A DNA stretch of 64,000 nucleotides from Erysipelotrichaceae bacterium (lineage in GTDB: Bacteria > Bacillota_I > Bacilli_A > Acholeplasmatales > Anaeroplasmataceae), in assembly GCA_015059145.1 (NCBI GenBank), contig SVAZ01000002.1, positions 1 through 64,000 on the forward strand, read 5' to 3'. Position numbers and translations under genes: made by a program. Positions within the stretch are counted from its first letter, which is position 1. Every line of letters begins with the position of its first letter. Of this stretch, positions 11,501 to 13,780 are shown in pieces. The notes beneath the pieces were generated by a model, which ran no database searches, was not told where the DNA came from, and saw nothing but the letters and a program-made list of their open reading frames with translations.

Positions 11501-12361
11501 TCAATCTTCACTCTTCCTAATATTTATTTTAAAATCAAAAATGCTTAATGCAATTAAAAGTATTGTATATATGGCATAACCAATAAAAAAGCTAATTAAC
11601 ACTGTGCCATCAATAAAAGCACCCATTAAAAATAAAGGCAGCATAGCTACTATAATAGTAAGTATTAATCTAGCTATATGCTTAGTAAATAAAAACAAGA
11701 CTACATACATTATAGGAAACACAATAAATACAATAAGCCAATAATTACTACTAATTAAATCTAATAACGTATGATCAATCGTACATGGATATGCAATGAA
11801 AAGGATAATACCAACTGCACCTAAAGCTAACGCAAGTGAATTAGTCAAATTAAAAAATTTTGTAGATTTGATATTATTTTCAAATTCTAGATATTCAACT
11901 AAGCCTTCATTATTAGCTATAGAAATCATTACAGGTATACCTACTAAATAAAGAACAACTGCTTCACCAATACCAACTGTTAACGCGCTTAACCAAATAG
12001 GCTCAATGCCTAATGCGAAATACAATTCTATTGATACAATAATAGAATTAGTTATAACAGGGAATATACTTGCCACATAAATGTTTTTTATTTTCATCAT
12101 AGGTATTACTGCAAGAGCAGTTGCAATAGTACCGAAGGCCATATCCCATACACCTAAGCTTGAGGTAGTGTTAGAAATAAAGCATCCTAAAATTAATGCA
12201 TAAGCATATTTAGGCTTAAATAAGACAAGCAAAACCAATACCTCAGACAATCTAAACTGTATTGATCCATATGCTATAGGAGCAAATAGCCATGTCAGTG
12301 CTGCGTATAGTGCAGCAATTATTGCCGATTCAGCAATAAACCTTACGTTAATTTTATTCAT
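11501..12361 (-). CDS. queT: QueT-family queuosine precursor (preQ1) transporter with C-terminal membrane extension
   Basis: MNKINVRFIAESAIIAALYAALTWLFAPIAYGSIQFRLSEVLVLL...CFISNTTSSLGVWDMAFGTIAT. The first 39 codons of the listed ORF overlap the promoter and riboswitch; the true start is ATG at 12361, preceded by AAGGAG. Confidence 0.93.
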   Translation of the reverse strand: MNKINVRFIAESAIIAALYAALTWLFAPIAYGSIQFRLSEVLVLLVLFKPKYAYALILGCFISNTTSSLGVWDMAFGTIATALAVIPMMKIKNIYVASIFPVITNSIIVSIELYFALGIEPIWLSALTVGIGEAVVLYLVGIPVMISIANNEGLVEYLEFENNIKSTKFFNLTNSLALALGAVGIILFIAYPCTIDHTLLDLISSNYWLIVFIVFPIMYVVLFLFTKHIARLILTIIVAMLPLFLMGAFIDGTVLISFFIGYAIYTILLIALSIFDFKINIRKSED

Positions 12362-12370
12362 ATTAAATTC

Positions 12371-12415
12371 TCCTTGTTTTTTATTTTCGAAGATGGTTAA
12401 GCAAGGAACATCTTC
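12371..12415 (-). promoter_or_regulatory. preQ1-I (class I) riboswitch controlling queT, translational type
   Basis: Minus strand GAAGATG-TTCCTTGCTTAAC-CATCTTC-GAAAATAAAAAA-CAAGGAG: 7-bp P1 (12409-12415 / 12389-12395), A-rich tail, and a perfect H-type pseudoknot CCUUG (12402-12406) / CAAGG (12372-12376) that overlaps the SD. Confidence 0.92.
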
Positions 12416-12425
12416 AAACGTAATA

Positions 12426-12453
12426 ATTGTATCATATTTTCTACTTTTTTCAA
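12426..12453 (-). promoter_or_regulatory. Promoter for queT
   Basis: TTGAAA (12448-12453) - 16 bp - TACAAT (12426-12431); predicted start about 12419, just 5' of riboswitch P1. Confidence 0.65.
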
Positions 12454-12775
12454 TATAAATGAGAATAAAGGACAGCATAGCTGTCCTTTACCTCATAATT
12501 GGGAGAGTTATAGTTTGCTTATGAAAAAAGTTATCTATCATTTATAGGGAGATTACGATAGATACTGTCTTTTTAAGACACAATTAGTATAACCATTAAA
12601 TTCAAGAATAATACGTTAAAATTATGTGAAAATGTGTGAAGTTGTTATTTTTTCCTTCAAATCTTGCAAATTATTTGCATTTCTTGCAAAAAAATAGTAT
12701 TTTTTGTATTTATTAACTTTTTTTATGTAAAGTATGATAAAATAATAAAGAATTTTTTTAAAGGAGTGAAAAGCC

Positions 12776-13780
12776 TTGGATGTTAAAAATATGAAAATTA
12801 AAGATTATGGCTTAGTCTTCCTTAAAGGTATACTACTCGGATTAGTCAGTGTCGGTATACCAGGAGTTAGTGCTTCTACGATTGGTATCGTTATTGGTAT
12901 CTATTTTTTAATGGTAGATTGTATCGCAAATATATTTAAGGATTTCAAGCACAACTTCTTATTTTTAATTGTGTTAATTTTAGGATATGGGGTCGGGTCT
13001 ATAGGTGCAGCCTTCTCTGTTACTATATTATTTGAAAAATTTCCTCTTGTTACAACATTTATTATATTAGCATTTATTATTTCATCTATTCCAGATATGT
13101 TTATGAAGCTTAAGCAATATTTCAAAAAGCCTTCATGCTGGATCACATTTGCTGTTGTACTTGCAATAATATTACTATATAACTTCCTAATTGGAAGTGG
13201 TGCTGTTGAAGAATTCCCTAGAGAACCAAGTATATGGTATTTAGTTAAGATGACTATCATAGGTGTAATAACATCTGCCACATTCGTAATTCCTGGTGTT
13301 GACTTTGCTGTTGTATTCTTAGCACTCGGAATATATTATCCATTCTTAAATCTTATATCTGAACTCCTACTATTCGGAGCTGATAATTATTTACAAACAT
13401 TTATTCCAAATATAACAATACTAGGCTTTTATTTAGTAGGTTACTTTGTAGGCGTATTCCTATTTTCAAAGCTTATTAAATTTGTATCTAAAAAGTATAC
13501 CGGTCAAACTCAATTGGCATCATTTGCATTTATTGTTGCAGCGCCATTTATTGTTATTAAAAGCTGTATAATTGACAATGCTTCATTTAAGGTGTCAGGT
13601 GGTCAGATTGTAGCAATCATAATTGGATGCTTAATAGCATTTAGTGTAATGATTGCAATAAAGATAATTAGCAAAAAGAATGATAAAAAGGCTGAGGAAC
13701 AGCTTATAGAGATCATCGAAAAGAATGCTGAAGAATTAGAAAATCAAACAATCGAAAATGAAAACAATCCAAGCGAATAA
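12776..13780 (+). CDS. DUF368 family polytopic membrane protein
   Basis: FLKGILLGLVSVGIPGVSASTIGIVIGIYF...ITSATFVIPGVDFAVVFLALGIYYPFL, the paired P-G-V-S/D motifs of DUF368. TTG start with AAGGAG upstream. Confidence 0.85.
   Translation: MDVKNMKIKDYGLVFLKGILLGLVSVGIPGVSASTIGIVIGIYFLMVDCIANIFKDFKHNFLFLIVLILGYGVGSIGAAFSVTILFEKFPLVTTFIILAFIISSIPDMFMKLKQYFKKPSCWITFAVVLAIILLYNFLIGSGAVEEFPREPSIWYLVKMTIIGVITSATFVIPGVDFAVVFLALGIYYPFLNLISELLLFGADNYLQTFIPNITILGFYLVGYFVGVFLFSKLIKFVSKKYTGQTQLASFAFIVAAPFIVIKSCIIDNASFKVSGGQIVAIIIGCLIAFSVMIAIKIISKKNDKKAEEQLIEIIEKNAEELENQTIENENNPSE

Follow-up and report, generated by a model that had tools for sequence, protein, structure and literature searches.

Two bases divide the class I prequeuosine-1 (preQ1-I) riboswitches into types. 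UC before the 3′ strand of stem P1 marks type I, and AC marks types II and III (PMC11625349). The leader of queT, a queuosine-precursor transporter gene in a 64,000-nucleotide stretch of an Erysipelotrichaceae bacterium (contig SVAZ01000002.1, assembly GCA_015059145.1; the whole stretch is called the window), very probably holds a preQ1-I riboswitch of type II. It fills nearly all of a leader of about 58 nucleotides (nt), and by burying the Shine-Dalgarno (SD) sequence it would lower queT translation when preQ1 suffices.

The Listeria monocytogenes switch of type I likewise lies in a queT leader, as a 41-nt aptamer upstream of the start codon, and its translational repression was demonstrated experimentally (PMC12519234). 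Two preQ1 molecules bind to it, and UC precedes its P1 3′ strand where the window element has AC. Type II (T. tengcongensis, B. subtilis; RF00522) has in common with the window element an H-type pseudoknot and a short G-C-closed P1, as well as AC, an A-rich loop L3 and a stem P2 formed with the SD region, and it regulates queT (PMC11625349). The difference is that the window element scores below the RF00522 gathering cut-off. Type III (E. coli yhhQ) shares the UU atop the P1 5′ strand, AC and the canonical AAGG pairing, and relatives of the window element control yhhQ-type genes as type III does (PMC10622847, PMC11625349). Type III has a shorter, pyrimidine-rich hairpin loop and is almost confined to Pseudomonadota (PMC10622847); in the window element, by contrast, the loop has 13 nt and a G closes P2.

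Layout and detection of the element

All queT leader coordinates refer to the minus strand of the window, and every position was checked. The leader reads TTGAAA, a 16-nt spacer, TACAAT, GTTTGAAGATG, TTCCTTGCTTAAC, CATCTTC, GAAAATAAAAAA, CAAGG, AGAATTTAAT and ATG, and comprises the following features.

12453-12448, minus strand: -35 hexamer TTGAAA of the queT promoter
12431-12426, minus strand: -10 hexamer TACAAT, 16 nt from the -35 hexamer
12415-12409, minus strand: P1 5′ strand GAAGATG (RNA GAAGAUG), with covariation
12408-12396, minus strand: P1 hairpin loop, DNA TTCCTTGCTTAAC, RNA UUCCUUGCUUAAC, made up of L1 (UU), the anti-SD strand and L2
12406-12402, minus strand: P2 5′ strand (anti-SD) CCUUG, pairing with 12376-12372, kept in relatives
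12396, minus strand: predicted ligand-specificity cytosine, the C of AC before the P1 3′ strand, invariant in the alignments (role from PMC11625349)
12395-12389, minus strand: P1 3′ strand CATCTTC (RNA CAUCUUC)
12388-12377, minus strand: A-rich L3 GAAAAUAAAAAA, aligning with the A-rich tail of RF00522
12376-12372, minus strand: P2 3′ strand CAAGG
12375-12370, minus strand: SD AAGGAG, four of six bases within P2, 8 nt before the ATG
12361-11501, minus strand: queT, 286 amino acids, S component of an energy-coupling factor (ECF)-type queuosine-precursor transporter (PF06177, E=1.9e-40)

The original prediction had placed the promoter, a P1 of 7 base pairs (bp), the CCUUG loop, the A-rich strand, CAAGGAG, ATG 12361 and queT at these positions, and all are found there; the reading that it gave of them is supported as well. 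P1 can be extended to 10 bp with one wobble, and its loop pairs with a strand 3′ of the A-rich linker, which is the architecture of an H-type pseudoknot. The promoter matches 10 of 12 hexamer positions and has TG before the -10. Transcription would start at about 12419, upstream of P1 as predicted; the -10 ends 5-15 nt ahead of P1 in 14 of the 16 leaders of family f1 that carry an element of the window's type. Single-sequence folding surpasses that of shuffled sequences only slightly (z -1.7), as is expected of a short stem with a pseudoknot.

AC stands at 12397-12396 and is invariant in relatives, as in type II; the UC of type I is absent. C12396 itself directly precedes the P1 3′ strand in all aligned relatives. 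The motif occurs with a 13-nt loop, a poor fit to the short loop of type III, and the element is filed as type II with a longer canonical P2. This 5-bp P2 covering AAGG is unusually canonical for type II.

A default Rfam scan, with the gathering cut-off on, reported nothing at the queT leader. Once the cut-off is lifted, the whole RF00522 model (1-45) aligns there at 24.6 bits, where the gathering score is 39. Across the 1.43 Mb genome RF00522 has 17 weak matches; the one on the queT SD ranks first, and the others reach 20 bits at most. The search of this family suggested with the original prediction thus returned a full-length match, the best in the genome, at a score below the cut-off. When these leaders serve as the training set for a covariance model, members of the family core score 46-79 bits. 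In a leave-genus-out model, built from other genera only (A3, R2), with five of its elements taken from in front of a different gene, window positions 12416-12368 score 73.4 bits (E=1.4e-15), and the next match in the 64 kb has 11.5 bits. Some further matches are attributed to chance. The second genome match of the family model R1 (C2:62522, 27 bits) lies within a 392-amino-acid coding frame, and the weak Rfam matches in 12200-12600 (csRNA, STnc370, FourU and others) have E near 1.

Conservation and gene partners

QueT was sought in 100 related genomes and the leaders were then read; the stems of a few f5 leaders (e.g. L031, L066) were assigned by eye. In family f1, 17 of 25 queT leaders contain a preQ1-I element; in 16 it is of the same type as in the window, and in L028 it is of type I. 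Nearly all queT leaders of families f3 and f5 have a preQ1-I element, for example in the form GCUG-UACCCUAGGAAAC-CAGC...CAGGG.

P1 pairs are kept in 83 of 84 cases within the family (68.1 +/- 1.95 with the 3′ letters shuffled) and in 163 of 174 across the order (111 +/- 4.6 in shuffles), a significance that is overstated because the sequences are related. Slid registers of P1 are 26-61% paired, against 99-100% in the true register. Compensatory evolution is seen as three P1 pairs with double changes in each of alignments A2 and A3.

CUUG/CAAG pairing is kept in 16/16 family f1 queT leaders with the window's type of element, so that the predicted retention of CCUUG/CAAGG in homologs holds. Some congeners lost the whole element; no leader retains P1 with a broken P2. 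In P2 an A-to-G change is accommodated by a U-G pair, and other families show matched differences in its two strands (CCCU/AGGG, CUCC/GGAG). The specificity motif AAC is kept throughout the family wherever the window's type occurs.

Model R1 was also run over 160 genomes of the order, and strong matches were obtained in genomes where QueT had not been found. In six of these (G021, G031, G034, G038, G049, G053) the element directly precedes a membrane protein of 245-248 amino acids (loci L085, L086, L088, L091, L092, L093). Two of the six proteins were scanned and belong to Vut_1 (PF02592, E=4e-22 and 5e-24); the other four are similar by sequence inspection. Vut_1 is the YhhQ family of queuosine-precursor transporters (PMC5372724), and preQ1 riboswitches are known to control both yhhQ and queT (PMC5372724, PMC11625349). 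The element thus leads a queuosine gene in the window (queT) and in relatives (queT or Vut_1/YhhQ). Nothing else here argues as strongly for preQ1 as the sensed ligand as the presence of one RNA ahead of two unrelated transporters that serve the same pathway.

Several points weigh against this assignment. The RF00522 score (24.6 against 39) is under the gathering cut-off, and no scanned locus of the order reached that cut-off. About a third of family f1 queT leaders have no element. P2 is near-invariant within the family and itself contributes hardly any covariation. As for the cut-off, it is a threshold set by a curator and not a structural feature. The scarce variation of P2 is explained by its 3′ strand doubling as the SD, and the leaders without a switch indicate that it was repeatedly lost or gained.

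The family f1 leaders without the riboswitch are L014, L019, L020, L022, L025, L030, L034 and L045. In G018 (L078 / L107) the riboswitch is intact, and the queT frame stops after 30 codons and resumes C-terminally in another frame; this queT without a QueT domain is either a disrupted gene or an assembly fault. At L028 (same-genus genome G007), the type I element occupies positions 1371-1460 (28.2 bits); UC precedes its P1 3′ strand, and a terminator-like hairpin with a U run comes after it. Within one genus, orthologues of queT may thus differ in their control, by translational type II or by transcriptional type I switches. The same locus has a lysine riboswitch (RF00168, 91.2 bits) at 2464-2633, some 1 kb past the start of queT.

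Mode of action and alternative explanations

Sequence, conservation, P1 covariation, SD placement, the transporter partners, the salvage genotype described below and the lack of a leader terminator are observations. Binding of preQ1, the OFF direction and the translational action are predictions from these. P1 would form first. PreQ1 would then dock opposite C12396 atop P1 and stabilise the H-type pseudoknot CCUUG/CAAGG, which would bury the AAGG of the SD and reduce queT translation at sufficient preQ1. In the ligand-free state the pseudoknot would open and the transporter would be made. The SD sequestration in the original prediction is correct for AAGG; the final AG of the SD remains outside P2.

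A preQ1-I switch that works through transcription termination or pausing is improbable, though transcription is the level at which the B. subtilis type II switch works (PMC11625349) and the congener locus L028 has its terminator-like hairpin 3′ of its own preQ1-I element. In the window the interval from P1 to the queT start has no terminator-like hairpin; a single one was found in 12300-12780, and it lies upstream (12492-12464). P2 overlaps the SD directly. Because P2 uses the AAGG of the SD and this interval has no terminator, translational repression is the most likely mode.

Less probable still is an SD-sequestering hairpin or pseudoknot without a ligand, such as a thermometer or constitutive attenuator, that merely resembles preQ1-I. 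P1 and the SD pairing, with a P2 duplex of about -4.3 kcal/mol, would repress without a ligand. However, near-invariance extends to the loop AAC, the A-rich L3 and the closing G-C, none of which simple pairing needs, and the genes that go with the element encode queuosine-precursor transporters of two unrelated kinds.

That the leader belongs to a longer coding region can practically be dismissed. The 325-amino-acid frame open from ATG 12478 runs through the promoter, the riboswitch and the terminator of a small RNA encoded upstream, nothing in relatives corresponds to its N-terminus, and an SD stands 8 nt before ATG 12361.

The riboswitch is a real but ordinary element of about 50 bases. It is of the known preQ1-I type and was overlooked by the standard databases because its score falls under their cut-off. 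It is conceivable, though rather doubtful, that the family has a distinct preQ1-I branch invisible to Rfam, which combines the type II/III specificity base with a full canonical AAGG P2 and stays near-unchanged while its target is swapped between QueT and YhhQ.

queT, queuosine salvage and the neighbouring small RNA

The start of queT is ATG 12361 on sequence grounds, and the N-terminus at this position is conserved among relatives. The 39-amino-acid extension of the mechanical open reading frame (12478-12362) is not part of the gene; it is the artefact that the original prediction took it for. QueT open frames have 287-361 amino acids in most of family f1 and 160-207 in other families. In the window, QueT has about 135 residues past the Pfam domain (11501-11920, minus strand), an extension without a family match.

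The genome (94% complete) contains tgt, queA and queH. Searches of it gave no homologue of QueF or QueD and no Vut_1, an absence that is no proof at this completeness, and QueC (PF06508) gives partial, weak matches inside longer frames and no convincing queC. The lack of a convincing queC, queD and queF points to a preQ1-salvage genotype, with which repression of QueT by preQ1 makes sense.

Directly upstream of queT lies a small RNA gene of about 120 nt (12582-12463, minus strand), with a second copy in the genome at G000:C22:54960-54842 (L139). It has its own promoter-like -10, a central hairpin UCUAUC/GAUAGA with CUCCC in the loop, the invariant UCAUAAGCAAACUAUAACUCUCCCA and a terminator stem rich in compensatory changes. 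Its 23-nt core is exact or near-exact in 34/160 genomes of the order (3/28 genera, all family f1), mostly as 1-3 copies per genome at varied places. A model of it matches 18/395 genomes of the class, all f1, and no Rfam family exists for it. Two C-rich, anti-SD-like motifs suggest a putative base-pairing regulator. This conserved, multi-copy RNA is more novel than the queT riboswitch.

The finding sets the queT start codon right and identifies a salvage transporter, very probably regulated, in a bacterium auxotrophic for queuosine precursors. Across a whole bacterial order, the scanned members escape the PreQ1 model of Rfam at its cut-off. That YhhQ can take the place of QueT behind one RNA illustrates cleanly how a riboswitch can guide functional annotation.
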